From Smittium culicis (Eukaryota; Kickxellomycota; Harpellomycetes; Harpellales; Legeriomycetaceae): 30,307 nucleotides of DNA. This document shows positions 3,918 to 30,307 of the stretch, piece by piece (positions within the stretch are counted from its first letter, which is position 1; each line of letters opens with the position of its first letter). Where the stretch lies: positions 1 to 30,307 of the forward strand of contig LSSN01002585.1 of NCBI GenBank assembly GCA_001970855.1, read 5' to 3'. The translations under genes were made by a program, and so were the position numbers. The notes under the pieces were generated by a model. The model ran no database searches and was not told where the DNA came from. It was given only the letters and a program-made list of their open reading frames with translations.

Positions 3918-6900
3918 TTATCGGATCTTTCTAGGTCTTGCTATTTTTCGTCCTGCCAGGTTTGATGGCATAGACCCAACTGAAAATCCACTCCCTACTC
4001 CGCTACTAGCTCCTAAATTTCCACCAGCAGCTCCACCACTACCGCCTGCCCCAAATGTAAAGCCTCCACTCCCTGCTCCTGTTGATGCCCCGAAATTGAA
4101 TTTCTGGCCTATTGTTGCTGGTGTTGCTGGCGAACCAACACTCGAGTTTGTCTGGCCAAATCCTAGTGTGTTGGGCTGGTTTCCTGAAGCCCCACCAAAT
4201 CCTTGCGTCTGACCGCTTGTCCCAAACATACTATTGCTACCGCTGCTTGCACTCATACCAGTTGAGCTCATTGCTGAGTTGGCCCCAAAGCTAAATGTTG
4301 AAGTTGGTTGCTGCTGTTGACTTTGGTTTGCCCCAAATCCACTTCCCAAAAATGAACCACTTGCTCCCCCAATTCCAGATGAACCAGTAGAATTGTTACC
4401 TGGAGCTCCAAAATTAGCTCCAAAACTAAATCCACCACTGCTCCCCGCACCAGTCGAAGGCGTATTTGTCGAAAATCCTGAAATGTTGCTGCTGCTAGAG
4501 GCTCCAAAAGCAAAAGGCTTTTTGGACAACGGCTCTTCTTGTGCGATCTCACGCTTGTTGTTGCCATTTGATAATGTTCCAAATGTACTTGATGGTTGTA
4601 CCTGAGACCCAAACGAAAATCCTCCCGAGGTTGTTGTGCTTGGCTGTGATCCCATATTACTTGTTGAGCTTTGGAACATATTCGAAGCTTGGTTAGTATT
4701 TAATGTCGAGTTGGTAGTACTGTTACTGTTAGCGGCCCCAAACAGGTTTGTATTTGAACCAAATCCAGTGCTATTTTGTGTAGATGAATTATTTCCAAAA
4801 ATCCCTGATGATCCACCAGCTATAGAGAATCCTGTATTTCCAGTTGTGCCAAAACCAGACCCTAGATTTCCTGTTCCAAAACTACTTCCCAAATTTGAAG
4901 TAGATGAAGTTGGATTTAAAGTAGAAGCCGTCAATAAAGGTGTGCTTGTATTACTGGTTGACCCAAATCCCTGTTGTTGGGTAGCATTAGTTGAGGAAGA
5001 GAGGTTAGATGATGATCCGAATAGTGATTTAACTGGATTTAATGAGCTTTTTTCTGCTGATCCTGGAGTAGAAAGTGAGTTTACATTTCCAAAGAGCCCG
5101 CTCCCTGTGGGATTTGCTGTTGAAGCTGAAAACATATTTGTACTTCCAACTGAAAATGGTTTTGATGTTTCAGAAGAGATGTTTCCAAGAGAGCTATCAG
5201 GTTTAGCTGTATCTGCATTAAACCCAACTCCAAAAGTACTGCCGATTCCAGATCCGCCAAACATAGATGAAGGTTTTAGCAATGAGCCAGACGCCGAGTT
5301 CGTAGCTGTTTTTGGACTTGAACTTTTAGTGTTCCCAAAGCTAAAAGTTGCTGTGGCTTTACTTTCTGATGTTTGGTTCGTAGTACTGGCATCTTTAATA
5401 GTGTTTCCGAAGATTCCTGTGCTAGTAGTGGACGATGGGTTACCAAACAAGTTGGTTTTTGGAGGATCAGCTGACGTAGTTTGTGAATTAGAGCTATTGT
5501 TATTAGCACCAAAGGAGAAACCTGATGGTTTACTGTTAATTATTCCTTGGCTATTTCCTGAAGCGCTATCCGTAGCCTTAGATCCAAAGCTAAAAATTCC
5601 AGTCGCTGGTTCCGGGCCACTAGCATTATTGGACGTCGATAGTATAGGAGCAGAGGATAAGGGATTAGTGTCAGATTTCGTACCAAAATTAAATAGATTA
5701 TTTTTTTGAGCCGGTAAGGCTGAGGCAGTGTCTGCTGGTTTTTGGTCTAAAGAGGTTTTATTAGGAATAGAGTTCCCAAATAATGAGCTTTTGACAGGCT
5801 CGCTGTCCTTATTTTTGGAATCGAAAATGTCTGCTGAGATTGTACTACCAGTAGAAGAGCCGAACAAACCAGTTGATTTGGTGGAATCATTAGTTAGCTT
5901 AGTAGTATCTGTAGTCGATCCAAACAAATTAGTTGGTTTAGCAGAGTCTGTTGATGAAGCAAATAGGCTAACTGGTTTAGCAGAATCGCTAGAAGCACCA
6001 AACAAATTAGTTGGCTTGTTAGTTTCTGCTGAAGAACCAAACAAGCTAGTTGGCTTGCTAGTTTCCGCTGAAGAACCAAACAGGCTAGTTGGCTTGCTAG
6101 ATTCTGCTGAAGAACCAAATAAGTTAGTTGGCTTGCTAGTTTCCGTTGAAGAACCAAATACGTTGGTTGGCTTGCTAGTTTCCGCTGAAGAGCCAAACAA
6201 ATTAGTTGGTTTACTGGATTCAGTTGAAGAGCTGAATAAATTAGATGACTTTGTGGCATCATTAGATGAGCTAAACAAATTTGATGTTTTGTTGCTTTGT
6301 TGGTTTGATAGCGAAATGTTTTGCTGGCTAGAAGTATCGTTTTTTCCAGAGGAATCAGAGGGATTAACAGATGGCGTGGAAGGTTTATTGAATGGAGGAA
6401 GGGATGTTGTTGAGTCAGTACCAGAGCCAAAGCTGAAAGTTGTATTTGGGGCTTGGGATGAGAGGTTTCCAAATATAGATTTACTTGAAGATTTGTCAGC
6501 GTCAGTATCTGATTTTAGCCCGAAAGCAGAGCTAGTAGTTTGTGAATTACAAGAAAGGGGTTTAGATTGATCAGAGTTGTTAGAAAAAATGCTTGACTTT
6601 GGTTCATCTGAATTTTTATTTGGTGCTGCCAAAGAGCTATCTCCAAGTCTACCAAAAACAGAGGATGTTTTAGTTGGCGAAGTTGAATTACCACTGAATG
6701 AATTGCTAGGTGCAGAAGATGGTGTTTTAGATTCAATTGATGAGCTGATGGCATTTGAGTTGCTGGAAGGTGATTTGGGCACATAAAAAGGCCTGTGTTT
6801 AGGTCCAGTTTGAGTTTCTAAAGAGGGTTTAACAGGCTCAGATTTTTTAGTGGAGAATAGAACTAGGTTTGATTTTTGGGGAACCTTAATCAAAGATTCG

Positions 6901-8727
6901 TCATCGCTAGAATTGAAAGACTCGTCAAGATCGTCAGCGTTATCACAAATAAATCTAGCGGAGAACCTCCAATTAACTTTTTGAGATTCATCATCAATTT
7001 GTTTTTTGCGACGTCTAATTTCAATTAGACGTTTTCTGTCAAGGTTGGTCTTTGAATGGTGTTTTTTACTTTTTAAAGGTTTAATAGGAGCAGGATGTTT
7101 ATTATTGTAGGTTGAGATACCATTCTCATCAACTCGCAGTTTTTTAGAATATTCGCGATCTGAAATAGTATAGATAAAAAAAATATGGGCGATTAAAATT
7201 TTATAAAAATAAATATATAAGATAAAGAATTTAATAAAATATAGCATACCTTCAAAGTCATTATTTTTTCTAGATCTTTGATTATCAGTGCTATGAGCTT
7301 GAGATTCAGAAATAAGTGAGTTTGAAGCTAGCGAGTTTGAAATAGGCATAGAATGATCGTTAGTCAAAAGCTCAGGGCGATTAAACCTTTGTAAAATACG
7401 CTTAGCTTGATTTTGCTGTTTAAAAAAATAAAAAGAAGAAAAGACTTTAGATTTAGGAGAGTAAGTAGAGCGGTTTTGAATTAAAAAAATTTTAAGACGC
7501 TATGGATATGATGGGGCGAAGAAATTTACTTGGATCATTTTAGCAAGGCTGTGAGCGGAAGATAACTGACCCGTTGAGGATACTCTTAACGATCTAATGG
7601 GGAGATTATGTGAATTGTTGACACCAATATTTGAGGTGCGAGAGGGAGAGTCTTTAAAAGTGATGCCTTCGTGGTTAGGTTTAGAGAGATTGCTTAATCT
7701 TGGAGTGCTCGTTGAGATGTAGCTCTAAAATTTAGAAATTTGAAAAAAGTATTTATAGTTATTAAAAGGGGAAAGCGATTTCGAAAATTTGTAGTTTATT
7801 GGATAACAGAGAGAGGATGTAGAATTACCTTTGATGTTTCATCGTTTTGGTCAGGGTTTTCGTGCTATGATAAAATAAAAAGAGATTGTTAAATGGAGAG
7901 GAAAAAAAAAATTGAGAAGGAATTGAAAAAAAATATTTTAAGAGAAGGGTAATAATACAGTGTCAATTTTATTGTATGATTCTAGAGAGTCGAGCAATCT
8001 TTGGGCATGAGCAGGAGACATCCATGCAGCTACTAGTATATTAAAGGAGATAAGTTACTTTATGGAGAAAAATGAAGATGGTTAAGTAGGTAAAATGGTA
8101 CATTTGCGAGAAGAGCCAGGGAGGGATGGTTTAGATAAGCTAGAGACAGCCTTGTTAGATAATGGGAGATTAGAAGGAGTTTTCAAACCCTAAAAAGAGA
8201 TAAATGAAAAAGCTTAGATTTGAGAATGAAATAGGGATATAAATGATAAGTAAAGATAAAGAAGAATACATTGGGGTATAGCTTCGAGGAGCTTGAGTGG
8301 ACAGGACTATTTGAATTGTTAGAGTGTGTATTTTTAGGGGTAGAGATGATGCTGGATATGTTTTGTTTAGGTAAAGAAGGAACAGATTGGGGAATACGGG
8401 GATATTCAGGGTTTAATTTGCTTGAAATCTGAGAAGAGATTTTTGAGGAAGCGGAGGGAGTTGTGGTAGTGGGAGAGGATTCAGTCCAAAATTTTGAGAT
8501 GATATTTTTAATATTCCCCATAAAGCCACTGTGAACAATCTAGATAAAAAAATAAATTAGAAAGTGTTGAATAGAAAAAAAAAAGTTAATGAGATATTTT
8601 ATAGGATAGGTACTTTTTTTTCAGGTCTACTGTAAGGAGAGCTGGTATTTCTCGTAGACCGTTTTGGGGTTCTTAAAACACCATTAAGGGCGGAGTTTTG
8701 TTGGAATGAGCTCGAGCTATCGTCCAT
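3918..8727 (-). CDS. NUP1: FG-repeat nucleoporin, Nup1-like, eight exons
   Basis: Nuclear pore basket nucleoporin that binds karyopherins. Proposed minus-strand exons: 8727-8614, 8539-8270, 8189-8102, 8029-7959 (or starting at 8032), 7864-7829, 7724-7530, 7415-7250 and 7159-3918. All junctions keep phase and give about 1393 aa. Introns are 72-114 nt with donors GTACCT, GTATTC, GTACCA, GTATTA, GTAATT, GTAAAT and GTATGC. Domains: a Ser-rich N-terminus with basic RTPKRSTR; a possible amphipathic helix GFMGNIKNIISKFW from about residue 43; SPAHAQRLLDSLE; a basic stretch with RKRLIEIRRRKK; then a long Ser/Asn/Thr-rich domain with many FSFG, LFG and FG repeats; and a basic C-terminus GRKIARPRKIR. 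That C-terminus resembles the importin-binding tail of Nup1, which separates it from Nup2 and Nup60. Residues 607-736 are a 13-aa tandem repeat. Large antisense frames inside the repeat region are shadows. The family is firm, Nup1 orthology likely, and exon 4 has two possible acceptors. Confidence 0.85.
5892..6281 (-). repeat. 39-bp tandem repeat coding ten LFG units in the nucleoporin
   Basis: Exactly ten 39-nt units (390 bp) encode 13-residue repeats of the form NLFGSSAETSKPT. The LFG core is intact in most units, while two early units and one late one have LFS or LFA. Units are similar at the DNA level, which points to recent in-frame expansion by slippage or unequal exchange. Copy number probably varies between strains. 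Confidence 0.9.
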
Positions 8728-9839: not shown

Positions 9840-11971
9840 GGTGTGCAGTATAAGATTTAAGCTCTAACTCGCTTAAGGCTAATAATTCCAGCCAAGTTTG
9901 TGGATTTGATGAAATTGTCTATGGCTGGATATTTTACTAAGCAAAACTGCAAGACTAAATTGCCGCATACAAATGTATCTGTAAACAAGCCGCGCTAGAA
10001 AATGGAATTAAAATCATTAAAGGCAAAGGACTCAGCATCGCTACATCTAAATTGCAGCATTGCTACGGAAATTAATGCACATTCTTACCGCATTTACTCT
10101 TGTCGAGCTACTTTTTGCCTTTAACTATATCTGCTAGTAATTGTTATAAAAACCTTGATATTTCCAATTCTGTTTATCTTTAGATTTTATCTCCTCAAAC
10201 CCATTCATTTTCACTTTAGAATTTTATGATACAAAACTTGGTCTACTTTGGAGATATTAACGGTTCACAAGAATGAATATCTTTTAATACCCTTAGCTAC
10301 ATATACCATGATAAAAGTTACAACTAAAATGTAAAGAATAGAGTATATATAATAAAATATAACAATAACTAAAATTTAAGACGAAAATGTGGGTTTGCAT
10401 TTGAAAAATTGCAGTTTTAGTACAAATTAACCTCCAATCTCATACAAAATATTACAACTTTTATACTCCATTTATCCTTTGACGCACACATGGCTTGTTC
10501 CAAATCTATATCAGAATACATAAATATTTATATGTAACTATTCTTGTTATACTAAACTAGGAATTTTTAGAATTTCTATACACGTCTTTTATCTACTTCA
10601 TAGGTAAATAATACTGTATTTAAATTTTTAACAAGTCAAATTAATATTGAAAAATTAAAGCCATCCAGCCCTAATTATTAAAATCTTGATATACTATCAT
10701 TTCGCTTTAAAAAAAAGGACCAAACTTATGGCTTATTCTTTTCCAAACTCCCGAATTGCAAATATCACTAAATATTAGATTGTATATCCTTTTTCACTAG
10801 ATAAATATCAATGGTATCTACTGCACTAATTCTCTAATAAAACTTTTTTTACCTAATTATCACGCTGGGCTACAAACGTATATTATTTCAGACCCGGTTT
10901 TAAAACCATATTTATTAGCTCATGCACAATAATCTCGAATACACGCACTAATCCCAAATTAAGTATAACCATTTTCAAATTTAAAAACACACTAATTTTC
11001 TTAGTGCTACCCATTCTACTTTAGAATCAATTCTGATTCACTCAATAAATAAAAAAAGCAAAAATTCAAAGGCTTAAACACGCTATCATAGATACCAAAA
11101 AAAAAAAAAAAAAAAAACTGTGAAAATGCACCTTTTTGTGTCATCTTCCAATATTGAAATTTTGAAAAAGCTTAAATATTTTTAGGGCTTGGAAACATAC
11201 TGAGAGACTATAATATATTGTTTTTTAATACAGCAATTTATGTATACAACAAGTAATAGAAATGCGCTAGTAAGCTAAGCTTTTTTTTTTTTGTGCTAAA
11301 CAAAATATAAAAAAAACTAAATTTACACTTGAAAACAGTCAGTGTATATAAATCAAATTAAATAGTTGGCGGAATAAATAGTGTGTAAGATTCGGTGATA
11401 ATTATTATGAGGAGAAATAAACTTTATGATTAGCGCAAAAATAAAATAGTATTTTTAAATATCGATAAAATAAAAAAAAACGCTTCAAACTTCAGTACAT
11501 AAAAACTAAAACACGCTTTTACAGCAGCATTTCCTAATACATATATATTTATTTATATTACCTATACACTATTTCTATTTCCATTTTCTGATTATTGCCC
11601 AATACAAAAAAAAAAAAAAAAAAATTCCTACAAATAAGAATTGTTTTTCACTAGTATTTTCATCACTAGCAATAAATATTAGTTTGAACGGATCTGCATG
11701 AGAATCCTCCCCTTCCTTTCTATTATCGAACCGAGTTATAATTCTACACACTAAAAAAAAAAAAACTATAATTTAAAGCCATCATTTCGAAAAATAACAA
11801 ACTTCAACCTTTTTAGCCTTACGATTTATCCTGAATATAAATGCGTAAGATAATATATAAAATTAACAATTTCGATTTATAAATTTAATCTGATGGCGCA
11901 AAACGTATAGCTGTATTTGTAAACTAGTAAATATTAAGACAAAGTAAATTTTCTTCAGTATAAATAAAATA

Positions 11972-12991
11972 ATGGATTCAGGCAGCGCTGAAACAAAACC
12001 ATCAACGCCTACGAAACCTGCGCCTACTGACACGGCAGCAGTTTCGACACCAGCCGCAATTTCTACAGAAAAGCCAGGTGCTAAACTCGGAAAAGAGGCC
12101 AAGATGCCGCAGAAGGTGAAAGTGTCGAAGAAGGCGTTACGGCAGGCAGAACAGGAACTGCAGCGGCTAATGAACGAGCGCAGCTCCATATTCCTTGAGC
12201 TAGCGAATCTGGAGCGCGACATATACGATCAAGAGACGCAGTATTTGGCGTTCAATAACGCGAGTATAGTCACGGGGTTTAATAGCGGACTAGGCGGCGG
12301 AGTGGCGGCACCTTCGGCCGCAGCTGGCTTGGGCGATGCGTTTTTAGGCGGCGGAGGCGATATGCGCAAGAGTAGTGGCAACATGAGCGGCACAGGCTTG
12401 AGCGGTGCTGCCGTCAACAGCTCACACCGCATCTTCTCGAACTCATCGAAGAGTTTCCTCAAGAGCAAAGGCTTGCAGCTCGACGTTCTCAACAAGAAGA
12501 AGAAATCCGCTCCTGCTTTCAAAAAGGACAAGTCAGCTCTAGGCAGAGATAAAAGCTTGGTCAAAGCGACCACATTAAATTCGCGCAGTCTCGCCAACGA
12601 GTTTCTCATCAGTAGCGGGGCCGACGATACTCCTGGTACTAATAAGAAGCTGAAGAAACTGCGTTTTGATAACGACAATGATGACGAGGATAGCTTAGAA
12701 GAAAATCGCGCTGCTAGCGATATTGATAATCTTATTGATCAAGATGGCAACGAGGATGCACCTAACGTCGCCGAAATTAGCGACGAATTCAATATCCCCT
12801 CTGGCACAAACTATTCCTCAGACGAAGCAAACAATACATCTGTTAAATCATCTACACCTAACTTTAAAAAGAAATCTTACTTAACTGCCCATAATACTAG
12901 CGAAAAAAATCTCAAAAAAAGGGCAGGAAGCCAGCAAAATACCTCTTCTCAAAAGACCAAAAAAATCAAGTTGGCCATCGACCAGCTCTAA
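11972..12991 (+). CDS. EAF6: Eaf6-like subunit of histone acetyltransferase complexes, with long C-terminal extension
   Basis: Eaf6 is a small scaffold subunit of NuA4 (and NuA3) acetyltransferase complexes. This intronless frame codes 339 aa. Residues 1-50 are Pro/Thr/Ala-rich. A coiled coil at about 53-92 carries the family pattern (LQRLMNERSSIFLELANLE, then RDIYDQETQYL). It is followed by NASIVTGFNSG at about 96-106 and, after a Gly/Ala-rich loop, RIFSNSSKSFLKSK at 153-166; these three blocks in this order define Eaf6. Typical Eaf6 proteins are about 110-220 aa; the extra 170 residues here are basic (NKKKKSAPAFKKDK), then acidic (DNDNDDED), then end in Lys-rich nuclear-signal-like stretches (SQKTKKIK). 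The 5' half is unusually GC-rich for this window. It is convergent with RPN8, 132 bp away. Family assignment is confident; the role of the extension is unknown. Confidence 0.87.
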   Translation: MDSGSAETKPSTPTKPAPTDTAAVSTPAAISTEKPGAKLGKEAKMPQKVKVSKKALRQAEQELQRLMNERSSIFLELANLERDIYDQETQYLAFNNASIVTGFNSGLGGGVAAPSAAAGLGDAFLGGGGDMRKSSGNMSGTGLSGAAVNSSHRIFSNSSKSFLKSKGLQLDVLNKKKKSAPAFKKDKSALGRDKSLVKATTLNSRSLANEFLISSGADDTPGTNKKLKKLRFDNDNDDEDSLEENRAASDIDNLIDQDGNEDAPNVAEISDEFNIPSGTNYSSDEANNTSVKSSTPNFKKKSYLTAHNTSEKNLKKRAGSQQNTSSQKTKKIKLAIDQL

Positions 12992-13123: not shown

Positions 13124-14158
13124 TCATTGTTCTACAGTTAATGCTGGTTCTGCTGGTTGTTCGGCAGGCTTGGTTGGATTGTTAGCCTTTTCATTAGCAG
13201 CTTCTGCTTCTCTGTTTTCGATTTTGTTGTTGATCAAATCGTGAAGCGAAATAATCGAGCGGATGAGGTTGCTGATATAGATTAGCAAGTAGCTGTCGTT
13301 GGTGGCTCTAGTTATAACCAAATTCTGCTGTGGATCATTAACATGAGCAATGCTGCCACTATTGGACTGCTTTTCGGCCTGGCTGGCGAAAAGTTCAATG
13401 TCTGAACGGTTAACAAGCTTTGGTAGCAAGTTGAAAATCTTTTGTAAGTTCTGGATAATCTCAAAGTTTAGAGGCAAGCTATTGTCAATCACGTTGGTTA
13501 GGTATTGTTTGATCTTTGATAGTTTATCGCTAAGACTCTTTAGCGATTCGATTTGCATCGATAGGCGTTGGGTTAAAGAGCCTATTTCAGTACCCTTGAT
13601 GTCGCGGAGTAAATGTTCAACACCAATTTCTTCGGCTTCCTCAGCACCAATCTCGGAGCTTACATGCTCGAAATTCTTGGTAGTTGCAGTGCCGTCGTTG
13701 TGGATTCGCTCTACAGCAAAGTATGCCTTAGTCGGTAGACCGATTTTCTCTTGTGCTACATTAACAACCACCAAAACTGGATTGGTGACATACTTTTTAA
13801 AAAGTTCGTTGATCTCCAAATCAACAGATTGTAAGCTGGGGCCACTGTGGTACCATCCAATTAAATGCTCCTTGGTATTGACCTTTTTGAACATATCGCG
13901 CATGGTTTCGACATAGTTATGGTCCAAGAAAAATACAGTCGATTTTGTTGTTTTGTCAAACTCTTCCTCAAAAGGAACTGCAAAACTGTTTGCAACATTG
14001 ACTAAATTGCGGTTGACTTGACCTAGCAGCACACCGACCACTCGCTTCTTTGTATTTTTGGCTACACGGTTAAAATGATCTACTACTGACAGCAAAACTA
14101 GGGGATGTACAACGACTCGTGTCTTTTCCAAGTTTTCTACGATTAAATTTTGATCCAT
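13124..14158 (-). CDS. RPN8: 26S proteasome regulatory subunit Rpn8 (PSMD7, MPN domain)
   Basis: Non-ATPase subunit of the proteasome lid. It pairs with Rpn11 as an MPN-MPN heterodimer and lacks deubiquitinase activity itself. The 344-aa intronless product matches family length. Its MPN domain spans about 14-150 (VVVHPLVLLSVVDHFNR, VVGVLLGQ, FFLDHNYVETM, LIGWYHSGPSLQSVDLEINE). The HxH zinc ligands of the catalytic JAMM motif are absent, with WYHSGP in their place, as expected for Rpn8 rather than Rpn11. Downstream come the family blocks GAEEAEEIGVEHLLRDIK and LNFEIIQNLQKIFNLLP, helices for lid assembly, and a Glu/Ala/Pro-rich tail. It is divergent from CDK8 with 844 bp between starts. I saw no PACE-type site (GGTGGCAAA) upstream. 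Confidence 0.97.
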   Translation of the reverse strand: MDQNLIVENLEKTRVVVHPLVLLSVVDHFNRVAKNTKKRVVGVLLGQVNRNLVNVANSFAVPFEEEFDKTTKSTVFFLDHNYVETMRDMFKKVNTKEHLIGWYHSGPSLQSVDLEINELFKKYVTNPVLVVVNVAQEKIGLPTKAYFAVERIHNDGTATTKNFEHVSSEIGAEEAEEIGVEHLLRDIKGTEIGSLTQRLSMQIESLKSLSDKLSKIKQYLTNVIDNSLPLNFEIIQNLQKIFNLLPKLVNRSDIELFASQAEKQSNSGSIAHVNDPQQNLVITRATNDSYLLIYISNLIRSIISLHDLINNKIENREAEAANEKANNPTKPAEQPAEPALTVEQ

Positions 14159-15002
14159 TCTTTAAAAATCTGATTATTAAATATTATTAAATTTACTCAA
14201 TTATGCCAAATCCAAGCTTAAACGATGGAGCTAAATTTTGCTTTTTCGAGAAGAAATCGACTATTATTTAATATTAAAACTCCTGGGGAAGTATGTGAAT
14301 ATATTCTTTGCTATTAAATCGTAGTGTTTTAAAAATAATGGATAACAATTGATTAGTAAAAGCAAACACTGTTAGAATAAATACCTTTTGTTGTTCTTTT
14401 CAAATCTAAATATAAAAATTGCTGGCTTTATTACAACTTATAATTTCTCTTTTCTCACATTTTAATCCAATAATGTTTCGCCTTGCGTAATCCAACTAAA
14501 CACCAATCATGGCAATTCAATAAATTACATCCAATTATGATAAACATTTAGTTGAACTATTTCTGAGCCAATAAATATCAGTTATAGATATTTATTAATT
14601 TTTTATCCAATAATATACACAGCTTAAGCTTTTTTACTGTGTATAGGGAATTTTGGGCTCTTATTTGCTACTTGAAGAGCCAAAAAAAAAAACTAGCAAA
14701 TCGCCTAACAGAGCTTTGAAAATCTTTAAATATCGATGTAAAATTAGAATTTTAGCTTTATTTACTGTTCGATTTTTTACTTTGTACCAGTAAATCATTA
14801 ATTTACGAACTTAGACTTGATATCTTCATACTTTCGCTTTACTTTTATACTTATTGAATATTAGCTAAATTCAATAATTTTCATTTTATTCAGAATCGAA
14901 AATCTGAATATTATTTAAATAAAGAAAAAAAACTTGCTCTGATGAACCCTCTAGAAATAAAGTAATATACTTGAAAAATCATCCATTTTTGTATTTTTAG
15001 CA
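14159..15002. promoter_or_regulatory. divergent RPN8-CDK8 promoter region
   Basis: An 844-bp AT-rich spacer that must hold both promoters. No specific factor site could be supported. TATTTTTAGCA just before the kinase ATG could be the acceptor of a 5' UTR intron, but this is speculative. Confidence 0.4.
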
Positions 15003-16780
15003 ATGGAGGCTTACAATTTGAAAAGAGAAAAATCCAGGATCAAAGTTAATGATAAGTATGATTTTATCGGTTTTATAAGCGCAGGCACTTATGGGAAAGT
15101 ATACAAAGCGAGACTTAAAACACGGTTAGCTATAATTATCACTTTAATTAATAATGAAACCTATTTTTAAAAACATAGACTTTCTAGGTCACAATTTTTA
15201 TTTCTCTATTCTTCATCGCTCATACATTTTCAATTCATTTTTACACTATTCTGATATTCTATCTAATCAATCCATCAACTAAATTTGTAGAAATATAAAC
15301 GATCCCAAACATTCCCAAGAATTAGCAATTAAACAATTCAAACCAGAAATTGAAGGCCCCAAAAAATATTCCACTGGAATATCCCAATCAGCATGTAGAG
15401 AAATAGCTGTACTCAATCAAAAGAAATTCTATTAAAAATACTAAAAGATATAGAACTATTTTATTCGACAACAATATAATCCCTTAATTTTGCTATTAAT
15501 TAGATATGCAGAGAGTTAGACCATATCAATGTTGTTTTCTTGCAAGATGTAATGATCGAGAACAGACTATTACACATGATCATGAGCTATGCAGAATACG
15601 ATTTACAGGTAACAATTATACTATTATTTAATTTTTTTCTTTGTATTTTACCAAATCGTCAAAAAAATTTTATTTATTTATAAATAAACCCCTTTATATC
15701 AAACAGACTATTTTACATCACCACAAAAAAGCGCAGCTTGTACTCCCAGAGCTTCTAATAAAATCAATGCTTATGCAATTATTACAAGGAGTTAATTACC
15801 TCCACAAACTCGGTATTTTACATAGAGATTTAAAGCCCGCAAACTTACTAATTGATAAAAATGGCTTACTTAAAGTCGGCGATCTAGGACTAGCGAGATT
15901 TTACAGTAGACCTTTCCAGCCTTTTTATTCTGGCGATAAAGTTGTAGTAACTGTTTGGTATAGAGCCCCCGAACTAATTCTTGGTTCTAGACATTACACA
16001 ACAAGCATAGGTTACTTATAACTTTTCTTTTCACCATATTCATGATATATAAAATTTTCTTTTTCAATATAGACATGTGGGCTATTGGATGTATTTTTGG
16101 AGAAATGTTGACCCTCAGGCCGATGTTTAACGGCGAAGAACTCAAAATGGAACCAAAAAAACCTATACCTTTTCAAAAACCTCAAATGATAAAGATATTG
16201 GAAATATTAGGATCCCCCTCAGGTATCCTAATTAAACATATTTTTATTATTATATTTAACTTTAACAATTTTTATCTACTTTATGTATAAATATCCCTTT
16301 AACTTTTTCTTATCAAGTTTTATGCATTTGTGGTATTTAACTGAAATTAATAACTCTTAATTTTTCAATTCATCACAGTTAGCCAGTGGCCTGATTTGGA
16401 ATATATGCCAGAGCTTCCGAACTTCAAAAAAATCAAACACCATTTAATAAATTTTAGAACATGGTTCCAGAAATCTTGTATTAATTCTGACGATTGCTTT
16501 TCGTTAATTTCAAAAATGCTAGAATATGACCCATCCAAGCGAATTACTGCTGAAAATGCGCTAGTTCATTCTTTTTTCAAAGAAGAACCATATCCTGTTT
16601 ACAAGTAATTAATTAAATATCCGTCATATTTAAAATTATATCTTTAATTAGCTTATATTTTATTGTTTTTATTGATACACTTGTACACTTTGCGGATGAT
16701 TTAGCTGCTTGCAAAAATTGGGAATAAAATACCCCCAAAGAGTTTTGGTAAAAGATGAAAAATGCACAGCTGCCAGTTAG
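15003..16780 (+). CDS. SSN3: cyclin-dependent kinase 8 (Ssn3/Srb10), Mediator kinase module, seven exons
   Basis: Ser/Thr kinase of the Mediator CDK8 module, partner of cyclin C, acting on RNA polymerase II transcription. Proposed exons: 15003-15124, 15291-15408, 15504-15608, 15707-16010, 16073-16222, 16379-16604 and 16705-16780, giving 366 aa with all phases consistent. Motifs: [12 protein letters not shown] glycine loop (25-36), Lys55 in LAIKQF, the CDK8-specific SQSACREIA (72-80, Glu78), HRDLKPAN (Asp156), DLG in place of DFG (Asp174), [11 protein letters not shown] and [13 protein letters not shown]. The DLG and the lack of a phosphorylatable T-loop Thr are CDK8 traits. A stop at 16606-16608 would end the protein at PVYK. 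The GTAATT overlapping that codon is a donor to an exon coding GIKYPQRV, which matches the family's C-terminal I-x-YP-x-R block, so I prefer the longer end. Donors GTTAGC and GTTACT are non-standard but give exact family matches. Confidence 0.9.
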
Positions 16781-24345: not shown

Positions 24346-25242
24346 AGGATCAATAAGGTATGAAAACAAACAGGAAGTTAGTAATTGAGAGTGTCGAGAC
24401 CTTCTATTACACATAATACCTCTCCAGATAAAGCTCGACTTGCTCGGGTTGTCGCGATTGTATAATTCGCAGTTTGCACATGAGAAAAATGTTTTTTTTC
24501 TAGTGTTATTCTGTTTACAAACTGTTGGAGCCTCAGGATTGGCTTATGAATTCGAAAGATCTTCTCTAAACTCTTTCTAGAAATGATGATATTGAATTAT
24601 TTCCTGATCAATAGATGAAGCTTACTCTGACTCTATATTTTGGTAAGATCTTTCCTAGTGGTTCTATATCCTTATGCGCTTAATTTAGCTAATTCTGAGC
24701 GGCTGTGGTCCAAATTCCTGACAGGGATTTTCTTACTGATCCTACAAAAAAAGTGACTATATCACCAACTGTTATCTTTAGGATTTCCCGGATATAATAG
24801 TAGGTGTAGCTGAATATCGGCCTAACATAATGAGATAGTTCTATTAGGATCCCATTATAAACAAGAGTTGATTATCTTCGCTAAAATCAAATTATCCTTA
24901 GAAAGATTTTTTTGGAAAAACTTAAAGCCAGAGACGTTTCCTGTTCCCTTTGTTCAATTGTTTAATATAAAAATGAAGGAGTCATATTCAATTCAATAAG
25001 AACTTAATGAAGTCGTTAATAGACCACAAAATTGTTAGCTGATGTTCTTTCTGCTTGGAATGAATCTTTGATTTTAATGTTATGATATCTTTAGATAGCT
25101 GTTACAATCATAAAAGTTAGTATGTTACTCTTGCTCTGATTCATCAGCGTCTTGGCTAGTTTGGTGTAAATTTTTTTTGAGATACCGTTTTTTTAGATGC
25201 CTGATAACACATAATATGACGGCTCATTGAATCATAATACAT
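24346..25242. other. spacer with possible decayed element
   Basis: No gene supported. Short plus-strand stretches such as RNDDIELFPDQ, KLTLTLYFGKIFPSGS and DRDFLTDPTKKVTISPT (about 24580-24800) look protein-like but are separated by stops. An old transposon relic is possible. Confidence 0.3.
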
Positions 25243-25439
25243 TTAACCCTTTCACGGGTGGTAGACTATATTTGACCCTCTTGATATAGCCAACAGCGTT
25301 CAGTTAAAATGCTTTAATTCCAAGTCTTTAAGAAATATTGGTATATTGTAAATTAACAACTAATAATAGATTTGCTTATATATCATAAACGAATCATTAA
25401 ATTCAATTATTTCAAGAGTAATGGACGGGAAAGGGTTAA
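25243..25439 (-). mobile_element. TTAA-flanked MITE-like element, copy C
   Basis: Bounded by TTAACCCTTTCACGGG and GACGGGAAAGGGTTAA; 197 bp. In reverse complement it aligns along its whole length with copy D (AATTTAATGAATCG-like block, TATATAAG, ACCAATATTTCTTAAA, GAATTAAAGCATTTTAACTG, GTTGGCTATAT, ATAGTCTACCACC). It lies 400 bp upstream of the BARD1-like start and so may sit in its promoter. Confidence 0.8.
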
Positions 25440-25839
25440 ATGAATTTTTAGAGTTTTCCTCAGATCAGGTCAAATGAAGAATTGAAGAAATATTACGTTT
25501 TTATTATTGCATAGCTAGATCTATAATCTAGGAAATGTAGAAATATTATTGGTTCACATGGGAGTATTTTATACTTTTATAGCATTATTTGCTGTAATTC
25601 TAAAATTCGATCATTATTGGATAAAATAGTGATGTGAAAAGTTTTAAGCTGCTTCGATTATTAGTTCAAACTGATACATTAGTTAGTTTAAACATTATTT
25701 ATATCTATTTAAATCTACATTTAAAGTTTTTTCCAATACATAAAACCTTTACATATTGTTATTATTCCTAATAACACGCAAGCTTTTTTTTTCCTTTCCC
25801 GTTTGGCCGTTGCATCCAATCTATGATATCTACTCTTAT
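25440..25839. promoter_or_regulatory. upstream region of the BARD1-like gene
   Basis: About 400 bp between TTAA element copy C and the chosen ATG. The reading frame is open from 25756, but the 28 upstream codons are hydrophobic and non-conserved (MLLFLITRKLFFSF), so I treat them as 5' UTR. No specific regulatory site is supported. Confidence 0.4.
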
Positions 25840-28800
25840 ATGTCATTAAATCAAGATATACTGCGGCTTGAGAATATTCTCACTTGCGTGAATTGGTATT
25901 TTTACTTTTATCATAAACAAACAGAAAAGCCTTCCCTATGCATTTCCTAAAATCATTTGTTTTAATTACTAATATTTTATATTTATTTAGTGAAAACTCG
26001 CTGAGTCTGGTAGATGTTTATGATTGCGGACATTTGTATTGTAGGTAATTCAAATTCATTTATAAACGCATTTTAATTCATCTTATTTTTCAATGTTCAA
26101 TCTTGACTCTGTCATTAACTTCCCATTTGCCTCTTTTCTTTCTTCTTTTCTGATTCTTTCGAACTTTGTAGATCCTGTAATAATAAAAATGAAATCGTTT
26201 CAAAATGTATGATTTGCAATAACGAAAATACTCACACTAATCCTCAGAGTGTCATAAATTCACTCGATTTTTCTAAAATTAACGCTCTACTAGCTCAATT
26301 TAAAGACTTTGTCATTTCTTCCAACATTGGCTTAAGCCCAAGATTAATTGGTAACTATAATACATCATTTCTTTTTTCAAAAGCGATATCAGTTTACTCA
26401 GGCCAATAGTTTTGGATTAAAACTGCTAAATTAGAAGAATCTAATTTTTTCCCATTTGTATACTTTAATTTAGATTCATCTCCTCCAAATAAAAATAATT
26501 TCGATGATACAAGTGTATATAACGCAGATTTAAACTATGAACATTCGTCAAATCCTATCAATCCATCATTTAACTCTAAAATTCAACCGAATCCTTCAAA
26601 TAAATATGTAGCAAAAATTCAATATGATTCAGTGCTTGCGCAAGGAGATCAAAAAAACTGTGATCATTCTCCTTCCATCGACTCGTCTAGCAGTTCCTCA
26701 ATCATACCTTCTTCTGAAATGGCTATTTCCCAAATGTTTAAAAAAATTCCGAGCTCATCAAACGCCTCAAATCATACTAAGAATCTCTCGAACTCAAATT
26801 TTAGCGCTACGATAAATAATTCTAATTTTAAGGTTTATAACAATGAAGTTCAAGTACGTCAGTCTTCAGCTTCTAAAAATTCACTCGCATTTAATAAACA
26901 GAGTCCTGACGTTTCTCCTGTAGCTACTGATTATTTCAAAGTAAATGAACCTTCTTTTCACGTTAATAAAGATTCAGAGCTGCCTAAAAACACTTCTCAG
27001 TCAAATACTGTATCTACTATCGAAAGTAGCCATTTTTCCGAATCTCCCATCCATAATAATACTTCTTTCCACCACAAACCAAAAAGGATTATTTCATCTT
27101 TTGATAGCTATTCTATAACTCCTAACTCTTCCTCACCACCCCCTTCAAAACCTGATTTAGTTACACACAGTAATAGTAAGCCTGAAAACTATGTATTAGA
27201 AAAATTTGATACTGTTTCTAGAAACCACTCAATTGATAACATCAAAATAAAAAAGGATGAGTATACTTTTAACAAGTCATTTTCTAATAATTTAAAAAAC
27301 CAACTCCTGATTTCTACTCACAGCTCCATCAGCCCAAAATTCTCTTTATCTACTCTACCACTACAAAATAGAAATATTCGAAATAATTACAAACCAAATA
27401 ATGAAGATAGCCCAAATGAAAATAAGGAGGAAAAGTTAAAAACTCCATTGAAATCAACTGAAAGTATTAAAGAATTTTTGGCTAAACAAGTTGTACCAAA
27501 CAACGATAGTATATCTAATATTATTATTGATAAACCTTCAGAACCTTTTTCTATAAAATCATTTTCACAACAATCAAAAACTGTGGAAGTTATTATTGAA
27601 AGTAAATCCCAATCTTTTGAACATAATTCTTTAAAAATTAGTAGCTCTGGCTACTTTTCTGATAATATTAATTCGACTAATAAAAGAGTTTCATATTCAA
27701 ATTTTCGCACTGCTAGGCTTTTACCAAAATCCAAAAAGCTAAAAAAATCCGACTCATTATCAAGCTTCTCCTCCTTTTCAAGTATCCATGATTTTTCCTC
27801 CTTATCATCATTTACATCATCAGAATCTGATCTAGATTCAAAGCAAACAAATGAGACCTCTAGTTCTAAAAAAAATGAATCTTTAATTCTTTTTGCTACT
27901 GGTTTATCTTCACAAGAAATCAAAATTTTAACAAAGTTTATAAAAAAATTCAAAAATATTATGAACATAACCTTACTTGATGATTATTCCGCTTATTTAC
28001 CTCACCCCAATCTAATTAGCCATACATCTGCTCTGTCTCAAAAAGCGAAACCTGTACCATCTCTGGTTACGCACGTTATTTCTGGTACAGACGACAACAA
28101 CTTTGCAGCAAGGACAATAAAGTACATGTTGGGAATTCTTATGGGTGCTCAAATTGTTTCTATTGACTGGGTCAAAGATTCTCTAGCCTCTGATTTTCTT
28201 GTCGAAGAGTCGGAATATTATATAAAACATGACCGTTCTACTAGTCACTTTAAAGCTCACTGTGGACCGTATTCAGGTCGTCTATCTAAAGCAGGTCTTA
28301 TCGAAAAACTATTTAAAAATTATATATTCATATTTGTTTTGAATCCATACCATATTAGAAAATTTACCACGGACTCAAGCTTAAGCAAATGGAATGATCT
28401 TTTGATGCTTATTGAACTTGGAAAAGGTATTGTTGCACCATTTGATTTTATCGCTGTAGTATCAAAAAGATACTTTCCTTTACAAAAGATTTCTAGATTA
28501 TTCGAAAATTTCATCAATAAGAGCGTTGATTTTTCAGACAATAACTTCAATGCACAAGGTCAAAATAATATAAAGTATTTGGATTTGTTTATTGAAGAGC
28601 TTGAAAAGCATATTAAAAAACCTTACATCGACTTGAACAGTCATAATATAATATTTATTGTCGAAGATGATGTATATAATGAACATAAAACTAATGGGAA
28701 TTATAGCACAGCGGACGCTACTAAAAAACCTGCATTATCTGATAGAAAAGCTAAAAAATTAGATTCCAAGCCAAGTAGAGCAATAAATTCACTTCGGACG

Positions 28801-28908
28801 TCTCAAGAAAAAAACTTCTTTTTTTTACTGGCAAATTATCTGGGGTTTGAGATAAAGCCAATAAAATGGATTTATGACTCAATTTCAATTTATGAACCAA
28901 TAAAGTAG
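25840..28908 (+). CDS. BARD1/BRCA1-like RING and tandem-BRCT protein, four exons
   Basis: Probable nuclear E3 ubiquitin ligase subunit of DNA-damage signalling. Proposed exons 25840-25895, 25991-26044, 26172-26350 and 26435-28908 give 920 aa. The first two junctions rebuild a C3HC4 RING exactly: Cys16, Cys19 (split TG|T), Cys31, His33, Cys36, Cys39, Cys49, Cys52, with 11 residues between the first two pairs as in BRCA1. LRLENILTC before the RING and FSKINALLAQFKDFV after it resemble the BARD1 dimerisation helices. Residues about 110-575 are Ser/Asn-rich low complexity. BRCT1 (about 580-690) has ATGLSSQE, THVISGTDD, RTIKYMLGIL (Thr657 and Lys659 at the phosphopeptide pocket) and DWVKDSL. GPYSGRL with KLFKNYIF leads into BRCT2, which ends KWIYDS (Trp908). 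The GP..(S)RL linker and GLSS favour BARD1 over BRCA1. There are no ankyrin repeats or PHD finger. Unspliced, a TAG at 26407 interrupts the frame. Confidence 0.85.
26351..26434 (+). other. proposed 84-nt intron removing an in-frame TAG
   Basis: The donor is ATTG|GTAACT and the acceptor GCTAAATTAG|AA, and the length is 84 nt (a multiple of three), so the frame is the same with or without splicing. Splicing removes the TAG at 26407-26409 and joins ATT G|AA GAA. The CTAA close to the AG resembles the end of the first CDK8 intron (CAACTAAATTTGTAG). Alternatives are a nonsense mutation, stop readthrough or a sequence error. Confidence 0.6.
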
Positions 28909-29211
28909 ACTTTAATGTTATTACTCGCGCTTTTTTTTTTAATCCTATTAAAGGATTGATTTTCCTAATGAACTTGATACTTAAAAGAAATATTTGTTTT
29001 ATTCTTATTCATAATTTTTTTCCCAATCCAAAATCACTTTCATTTATATTCTTTTTTGTCCAAGTTGATTCTTTGAATGTTAACTTTTTAACTTATGTTC
29101 TTTGAAGGGTTTTATCATATCTAATAGCTTTATTTCAAATAAAAATTCACTAGTATAGTTTTATGAATATGGATATGTTGGCATTTCTGGTTTCATTGCA
29201 AAAATCCTAAT
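28909..29211. other. 3' flank of the BARD1-like gene
   Basis: AT-rich, no gene seen. Likely holds the 3' UTR. Confidence 0.5.
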
Positions 29212-29406
29212 TTAACCCTTTCCAGTCCAACGCTCTTTAAATAATTGAATTTAATGAATCGCTTATGATATATAAGAAAATCTATTATCAGTTTTTATTT
29301 TACAACATACCAATATTTCTTAAAATCTCGGAATTAAAGCATTTTAACTGAACTGTTGGCTATATTTTGTAGATCAAAAATAGTCTACCACCAAAGAAAG
29401 GATTAA
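29212..29406 (+). mobile_element. TTAA-flanked MITE-like element, copy D
   Basis: Left end TTAACCCTTTCCAGTCCAAC; right end decayed to AAAGAAAGGATTAA but still closing on TTAA; 195 bp. Internal blocks TATATAAG, ACCAATATTTCTTAAA, GAATTAAAGCATTTTAACTG, GTTGGCTATATTTT and ATAGTCTACCACC match copy C in the opposite orientation. Confidence 0.8.
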
Positions 29407-29577
29407 ATTTATAATTATACTCGATTCTTTTGAGAGCCATACAATTAATTTGATAGAAGAATTGGACTGAATGATAATCTGGTCCGATACAGCTCTTTCC
29501 TTTTGCTAAACAAATTATATTTTTAATCACAGAATTTTATTTGTTCGATAATATTACTAGAAATTATGTGGTATAGT

Positions 29578-29772
29578 TAACCCTTTCCCGGGCAGTAGAC
29601 TGTTTTTGATCTACAAAATATAGCCAACAGTGTTCAATTATACTAGTTTAACTCCGAAAAAGAAAAAAATATTGGTTTATTGTATTTCAACAGCAAATAA
29701 TGTAATTTCTTAAAAGCCGCTAGCGAATCATTAAACTCATTTTGATAAGAGTGTTGGACGGGAAAGGGTTAA
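29578..29772 (-). mobile_element. TTAA-flanked MITE-like element, copy E
   Basis: Bounded by TTAACCCTTTCCCGGGC and GACGGGAAAGGGTTAA; 195 bp. It holds AGTAGACTGTTTTTGATC, ATATAGCCAACAGTGTTC, AATATTGGT and AATCATTAAACTCA, which match copies A, C and D when reverse-complemented. Its terminal repeats are among the best preserved, so it may be the youngest copy. Confidence 0.82.
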
Positions 29773-30101
29773 GAGCGTTGGCCCCAGAAATGGCTAAACT
29801 TGCTCCAACAAAATCAAATTCTTAAATATTGAAAATAGTTTTTTTTTACCATCCAGGAATAAATGATTCCATTGGGTATAAATTATAAAACCTTCTAGTA
29901 TATAGTAGGATAAATAGTTATTGCCCAATAGCATCCGATTAATATAAAAAAAATCAGCCCAATTTTTTATCCTTCAAGCAAATGTTTTGTTTAATTTACC
30001 ATTACTAGAAAAGTTTCTTGACTTATTTTAGCCCCTTTGTCTATAAGATTTCCAATAAATTGTACATTATACTCCAAGAAATAATAACAAAAGAATAAGG
30101 C
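29773..30101. other. spacer with an element fragment at its left edge
   Basis: The first 26 bases (to about 29798) resemble a reversed TTAA-element end (see findings). The rest is AT-rich 5' flank of the gene starting at 30102; no site is supported. Confidence 0.4.
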
Positions 30102-30307
30102 ATGGATCTAAAAATCCTACATCAAATAGCTCAGCTACATCATCTGTACAATTCTATATATCCAAATAAAACTGAATTCGATATTAACGCGGAAGAAAAA
30201 GTATTCTTTTTTATTATTACTTTATTTTATTTAAAATTAAACAAATCTGGTTCAACCGTATAAATCCTAGTTTGTTTTTTATGTTTTTTTACTTTTTTTT
30301 TTTTTTT
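30102..30307 (+). CDS. probable first exon of an unidentified gene, cut by the window end
   Basis: ATG at 30102 opens 33 codons (MDLKILHQIAQLHHLYNSIY, then PNKTEFDINAEEK) up to 30200, followed by GTATTC, the same donor as nucleoporin intron 2. The next bases are T-rich and intron-like, with a possible acceptor ATCCTAG near 30268. The amino-acid composition is balanced and helical, unlike the spacers. I do not recognise the family; only the N-terminus is present. Confidence 0.45.

Follow-up and report, generated by a model that had tools for sequence, protein, structure and literature searches.

Background

The complex of BRCA1 and BARD1 has been described to ubiquitylate histone H2A at K125/127/129, the BRCT domains of BARD1 reading H2AK13/15ub and its ankyrin repeats H4K20me0 (PMC10639053, PMC11854596). 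In BRCA1, the E2-binding site is determined by Ile26 and the linchpin is Lys65, as stated in PMC9910797. With respect to fungi, BRCA1 was given in 2021 as not found in databases (PMC8483008), and in 2024 BRCA1 homologues were reported from the early-diverging fungi Mucor lusitanicus, Rhizopus delemar and L. transversale (PMC11061109). The accessible part of the main text of the 2024 report mentions neither Smittium nor Kickxello- or Zoopag- terms nor BARD1. The literature searched, in which few subscription journals were covered, yielded no paper on fungal BARD1 and none dealing with BRCA1 or BARD1 from Smittium, from chytrids or from "early-diverging fungi". The view taken in the initial annotation of the present locus, that BRCA1 and BARD1 are known from animals and plants, is outdated in the light of these fungal BRCA1 homologues (PMC11061109) and of the names that S. 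culicis proteins bear at NCBI.

The gene described here is located on the plus strand of a 30307-nucleotide stretch of Smittium culicis DNA (the window), where four exons at 25840-28908 are predicted to encode a spliced protein of 907 residues extending from a RING to tandem BRCT domains. It likely adds a new member from fungi to an already known family. Its product likely represents the BARD1-like, non-catalytic half of a ubiquitin ligase for DNA repair, an enzyme missing from model yeasts.

Gene structure

The coordinates proposed initially (25840..28908) were correct. Exon 1 (25840..25895) starts with the first in-frame ATG downstream of a stop before 25744 and codes for Met1, pre-RING residues, the zinc ligand Cys16 and bases 1-2 of Cys19, whose codon is divided (TG, then T) over the exon 1/2 junction. 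Exon 2 (25991..26044) contributes the remaining Cys19 base and the ligands Cys31, His33 and Cys36, exon 3 (26172..26350) the ligands Cys39, Cys49 and Cys52 together with a possible RING-flanking dimer helix at about 26251-26331, and exon 4 (26474..28908) the Ser/Asn-rich linker and the tandem BRCT domains including the stop codon. Predicted intron 1 (25896..25990, 95 nt, GTATTTTT..TTTAG, CTAAT at -22), predicted intron 2 (26045..26171, 127 nt, GTAATTCA..TGTAG, CTGAT at -22) and intron 3 (26351..26473, 123 nt, GTAACTAT..TTTAG) all possess GTA donors, TAG acceptors and a branch-like CTAAT/CTGAT 22-33 nt upstream of the acceptor. Excision of introns 1 and 2 is predicted to build the RING, as had been proposed from two short introns, but the whole gene has three, excision of the third connecting the RING to the BRCT exon.

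Inverted copies of a roughly 200-bp repeat (25231-25441 and 29210-29418) are located on both sides of the whole gene and are at most 90% complementary over 144 nt; additional copies of this MITE-like element are found at 1531-1734, 29572-29772 and C1325:3767-4339. Neighbouring frames were taken to code for an FG-repeat nucleoporin (3918-7499, minus strand), Eaf6 (11948-12991, plus strand), Rpn8 (13124-14161, minus strand) and a CDK-type kinase (15632-16021, plus strand).

Deposited models and overlapping contig

Two S. culicis proteins at NCBI, P0001 (the present gene) and P0002 (the copy in an apparent second strain, 87% identical in the BRCT part), already bear the names BRCA1-like and BARD1. 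P0001 agrees with the present model in intron 3, starts at Met50 (base 26209, within the last RING zinc pair) and includes ligand Cys52; neither deposited model begins upstream of Met50, and both lack the RING. Thus, the BRCT likeness is on record by name and the RING is absent from that record. The RING exons are located directly upstream of P0001, and its annotation should be extended. A protein search with the RING region retrieved P0001 as sole match, and a further one just the two S. culicis proteins. Between these two, BRCT1 is 91%, the inter-BRCT region with the start of BRCT2 94%, a BRCT2 strand 83% and the C-terminal 30 residues 100% identical; the linker (82%) and the inserts (71-73%) are less conserved.

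Window positions 25434-30307 recur in contig C1325 (1-4874). Of the 6 differences between them, one lies in intron 2; the other five are in exon 4 and lead to 2 amino-acid changes, both within the linker. The two are overlapping or allelic contigs rather than paralogues.

RING domain

The RING (residues 16-52; 25885..26217, plus strand, distributed over three exons) comprises the ligands C16, C19, C31, H33, C36, C39, C49 and C52 in the spacing C-x2-C-x11-C-x-H-x2-C-x2-C-x9-C-x2-C, all eight being invariant in an alignment with three BARD1 sequences, one plant BRCA1 and Rad18. This agrees with the eight ligands at BRCA1/BARD1-like spacing, one cysteine being split by a junction, that had been recognized initially. 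In Pfam, the RING is located below every cut-off, the best family being zf-C3HC4_3 (E 2.5e-5; 24.4 bits vs a 27-bit cut-off), and among PDB sequences CWC24 is nearest (E 0.002), followed by BRCA1 (0.07) and BARD1 (0.48). Against a BARD1 RING profile built without Smittium it reached 20.6 bits, the best of 200 shuffles 10.3. The RING of the genome's Rad18 scored higher (34.9 bits, the best among the sources scanned) and was also the best genome match to zf-RING_6, below the cut-off.

The claim that such a pattern is very unlikely by chance was borne out. When all GT[AG]..[CT]AG introns of 50-200 nt were allowed, up to two per sequence, the RING pattern behind an ATG was present in the real stretch 25640-26473 and in 0 of 1000 dinucleotide-preserving shuffles of it; among 168 real 834-nt genome tiles (13 sources, both strands) the single occurrence was the true Rad18 RING. 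The spliced RING used as genome query gave 6 matches up to E 10, all of them the gene's own three exons on the two overlapping contigs.

In the E2-contact column the Smittium protein has Asn (CVNC), BARD1 Arg and plant BRCA1 Ile (CPIC); in the linchpin column Smittium again has Asn (CMIC-N), BARD1 Tyr/Cys/His and plant BRCA1 Lys (CPVC-K). The BRCA1-type contact Ile and linchpin Lys/Arg are hence both missing, as in BARD1, and Asn in both columns leads to the prediction that the RING belongs to the non-catalytic half.

Linker and tandem BRCT domains

The long Ser/Asn-rich linker of the initial annotation covers residues 97-562 (26474..27870, plus strand), contains 22.5% Ser and 11.8% Asn at a pI of 9.0, and harbours a basic patch, PKSKKLKK, at 27724-27747. 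Neither an ankyrin repeat nor a PHD-like finger family was among 11 Pfam matches (E up to 10), in line with the lack of both stated at the outset. The reduced architecture deduced from this lack holds if the protein is BARD1, but not if it is BRCA1, whose layout likewise consists of RING and BRCT without ankyrin repeats.

BRCT1 (27871..28240, plus strand) carries A-T-G at residues 571-573 and R643-T-I-K646 (28111-28122) at BRCA1 phosphate-pocket positions, so that T572-G573 and R643-T-I-K646 match the phosphopeptide pocket S/T-G ... R-T-x-K; R643 is as in BRCA1, BARD1 having S in that column. The inter-BRCT segment (GPYSGRL..KLF) and a diverged BRCT2 with long inserts follow at 28241..28905 on the same strand, the C-terminal end being KWIYDSISIYEPIK. 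All C-terminal motifs noted before (GLSS, T-I-K-Y-MLGIL, WVK and GPYSGRL..EKLF) were found.

The BRCT part alone scored 23.5 bits with Pfam BRCT (cut-off 21.3), and 19.5 bits when scored as whole protein. Compared with PDB sequences, the pair matched BRCA1 at E 9.2e-8, BARD1 at 7.4e-4, MCPH1 at 0.011, MDC1 at 0.22 and Brc1 at 0.24; no Crb2, Rtt107 or Mdb1 chain was among the 33 PDB sequences listed up to E 10. Profiles built without Smittium gave 42 bits (BARD1) and 41 bits (plant BRCA1), compared to 12 bits for the highest-scoring other ORF among 26 scanned genome sources, other BRCT genes included, and 6.4 bits for the best of 200 shuffles. In a tree of 20 rows based on BRCT1, the BRCA1/BARD1 class stood apart from other Smittium BRCTs at 75/90. 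Assignment of the BRCT pair to the BRCA1/BARD1 class is well supported by its sequence, and the BRCT scores together with the eight RING ligands support the class proposed initially.

An AlphaFold model computed from 14 rows (8 of them animal BARD1) was weak (mean pLDDT 51.7) and displayed the strand/helix order of a tandem BRCT; Foldseek and VIA ranked BARD1 and BRCA1 tied first, with Crb2 at Foldseek rank 45. When, as a control, the model was built from just the two Smittium rows (pLDDT 40), no BRCT structure appeared among the 50 matches listed; the evidence from the fold is therefore not independent of the homology on which the sequence evidence rests.

Relation to BARD1 and BRCA1

In a tree of 21 rows, comprising 15 BARD1 sequences (those with a name being from rodents), 2 plant BRCA1 and 2 other rows and lacking animal BRCA1, Smittium grouped with the 15 BARD1 rows at 92/90, unstarred. 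Alternative unions with plant BRCA1 (p-AU 0.168), P0015 (0.076) and P0016 (0.186) were not rejected. This placement and the RING without E2-contact and linchpin residues lean towards BARD1, the identity of which, judged from sequence, is favoured over BRCA1 but not proven. Of the BARD1-like identity put forward initially, the class therefore stood, and the choice of side is left at an unstarred 92/90 and a plant BRCA1 union at p-AU 0.168.

Search for a partner and related genes

Screens of the own genome gave 8, 9 and 2 matches for the BRCT families PF00533, PF16589 and PF16770, respectively, and 5 and 73 (about 50 distinct places) for the RING families zf-RING_6 and zf-C3HC4_2; plant BRCA1 P0004 and BARD1 P0007 as queries gave 10 and 69 matches, the latter mostly ankyrin. 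No contig was common to the RING-family and the BRCT-family lists, and the second RING partner expected initially was not found by these screens. Those with PF00533, PF16589, zf-RING_6 and zf-C3HC4_2 miss the present gene too, PF16770 alone listing it (E 0.43), because its RING is cut by introns and its BRCT is weak. Being blind to an intron-split RING of this kind, the screens do not turn a missing partner into evidence of absence. No convincing BRCT was seen when 15 of the 73 zf-C3HC4_2 matches and C1323, a match of the plant BRCA1 query, were read with their surroundings, and a BRE search, which gave no match in S. culicis nor in any control genome, was uninformative.

The RING loci of Rad18, an Mpe1-like and an RFWD3-like protein were inspected separately, and L055, with an N-terminal RING, presumably resembles RNF10/Mag2. 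At L010 (C1206:32273) and L011 (C2040) a RING is followed by another frame, which we take to be RFWD3-like (WD40). The other BRCT genes were assumed to represent Dpb11/TopBP1 (L029, C327), Crb2/Rad9 (L025, C111), Rap1 (L017, C1656), Pescadillo (L019, C747), Chs5 (L031, C1453), FCP1 (L032, C423) and RFC1 (L030, C156). RFWD3 is part of the Fanconi set given in PMC11061109.

A BRCA2 OB1 domain was detected at L034 (C759:83351-83692; E 6.9e-25) within an open frame of 1879 aa. The genome's H2A (L060) reads ..SKTRSSRAGLQF.., with a KKSKK tail and a C-terminal SQEM. In addition to this canonical H2A, another H2A-like frame was noted on the minus strand (L061, C317:9700-10400), its N-terminus being diverged and its end reading ESQEF.

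Proposed function and alternative explanations

We propose, at a probability of about 0.55, that the protein encoded at 25840-28908 acts in homologous-recombination repair as the BARD1-like subunit, itself non-catalytic, of a ubiquitin ligase bound to chromatin. Its RING would fold around two zinc ions and, given Asn at the E2-contact and linchpin positions, would not engage an E2 by itself; the helices beside it may pair it with a separate catalytic RING. The flexible basic linker would allow the BRCT pair to sit on damaged chromatin, where the latter may read a phosphoserine/phosphothreonine peptide via T572/G573 and R643-T-x-K646 and/or, as in animal BARD1, ubiquitylated H2A, the partner's E2 thereby modifying the lysine-rich H2A tail. 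With no ankyrin match and an R-T-x-K pocket with Thr-Gly, a phosphopeptide appears the likelier ligand. Complex formation, ligand and substrate are all inferred.

The gene could instead be the BRCA1 orthologue and encode the catalytic subunit, its RING having diverged; BARD1 would then be located elsewhere or lost. A layout of RING and BRCT without ankyrin repeats, the R-T-x-K pocket, the better PDB match (E 9e-8 vs 7e-4 for BARD1), the non-rejected union with plant BRCA1 (p-AU 0.168) and the BRCA1 homologues reported from other early-diverging fungi (PMC11061109) are consistent with this possibility, which we nonetheless consider rather unlikely in view of the substituted E2-contact Ile and linchpin Lys, the grouping with BARD1 (92/90) and the BARD1-like GLSSQ and MLGIL. 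A further variant, in which a BARD1-type subunit acts without any BRCA1, appears doubtful: such an ankyrin-less, E2-silent protein would use its BRCA1-style pocket for damage marks and a borrowed RING (e.g., that of Rad18) would ubiquitylate chromatin, BRCA2 being kept.

Decay of the RING exons to a remnant, with the BRCT protein alone being made as in the deposited model, is improbable. Both P0001 and P0002 lack the RING, which moreover stays under the Pfam cut-offs, but none of its eight ligands is lost, the frame is open and the signals of all three introns are intact, and 0 of 6 contig differences affect exons 1-3, hardly a test with a near-identical contig. Membership in another fungal BRCT family (Brc1/Rtt107, Crb2, Mdb1), with independent gain of a RING, is very improbable. 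For it speak a weak match to Pfam RTT107_BRCT_5 (E 0.026, below the cut-off) and, in the BRCT1-based tree, a non-rejected union with the Smittium Crb2-like row (p-AU 0.414), a test of little power owing to that row's branch of 4.42. The poor Brc1 match (E 0.24), the absence of Crb2, Rtt107 and Mdb1 chains from the PDB sequences listed and the scores of at most 12 bits of the own-genome BRCT ORFs scanned with the BARD1 and plant BRCA1 profiles argue against it. S. culicis inhabits the guts of aquatic insect larvae, and close matches are S. culicis proteins only, which would fit horizontal transfer from the insect host's BARD1. The stem branch, very long at 2.26 changes per column in a tree without insect rows, and the lack of any insect among the named ones of 21 protein matches (5 without name) render such a transfer highly improbable.

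Should RNA data confirm the junctions, Smittium would possess the RING half of the BRCA1/BARD1 system, where deposited models show BRCT alone. The BARD1-like gene would then supplement the 2024 report on early-diverging fungi and place the loss seen in model yeasts later than the separation of those lineages. An ankyrin-less BARD1-like subunit would test H4K20 reading as a later addition, and S. culicis, which has BRCA2 but may have no second RING-BRCT gene, would provide a natural test of each half's role.

Comparison with known systems

Rad18 shares the RING with the Smittium protein but is a separate gene at C2447, presumably with a UBZ-like finger, and no BRCT was seen in L009. The BRCA1/FANCS homologues of early-diverging fungi, given under the BRCT family PF00533/IPR011364, agree in superfamily and in their provenance from early-diverging fungi (PMC11061109). 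Animal and plant BRCA1 have the RING, the tandem BRCT and the R-T-x-K phosphate pocket in common with the Smittium protein (PDB E 9e-8), which differs in having Asn for the E2-contact Ile and the linchpin Lys and no match to the PHD finger of the plant form. It departs from animal BARD1 in its lack of an ankyrin match, in R replacing S ahead of T-x-K, in long BRCT1/BRCT2 inserts and in a last ligand pair without CPxC. Shared by both are the N-terminal RING, in which the residue between ligands 1 and 2 is of a non-E2-contacting kind, and the tandem BRCT with GLSSQ, TxKxMLGIL, WVK and GP..RL..KLF, the two proteins grouping in the tree at 92/90.
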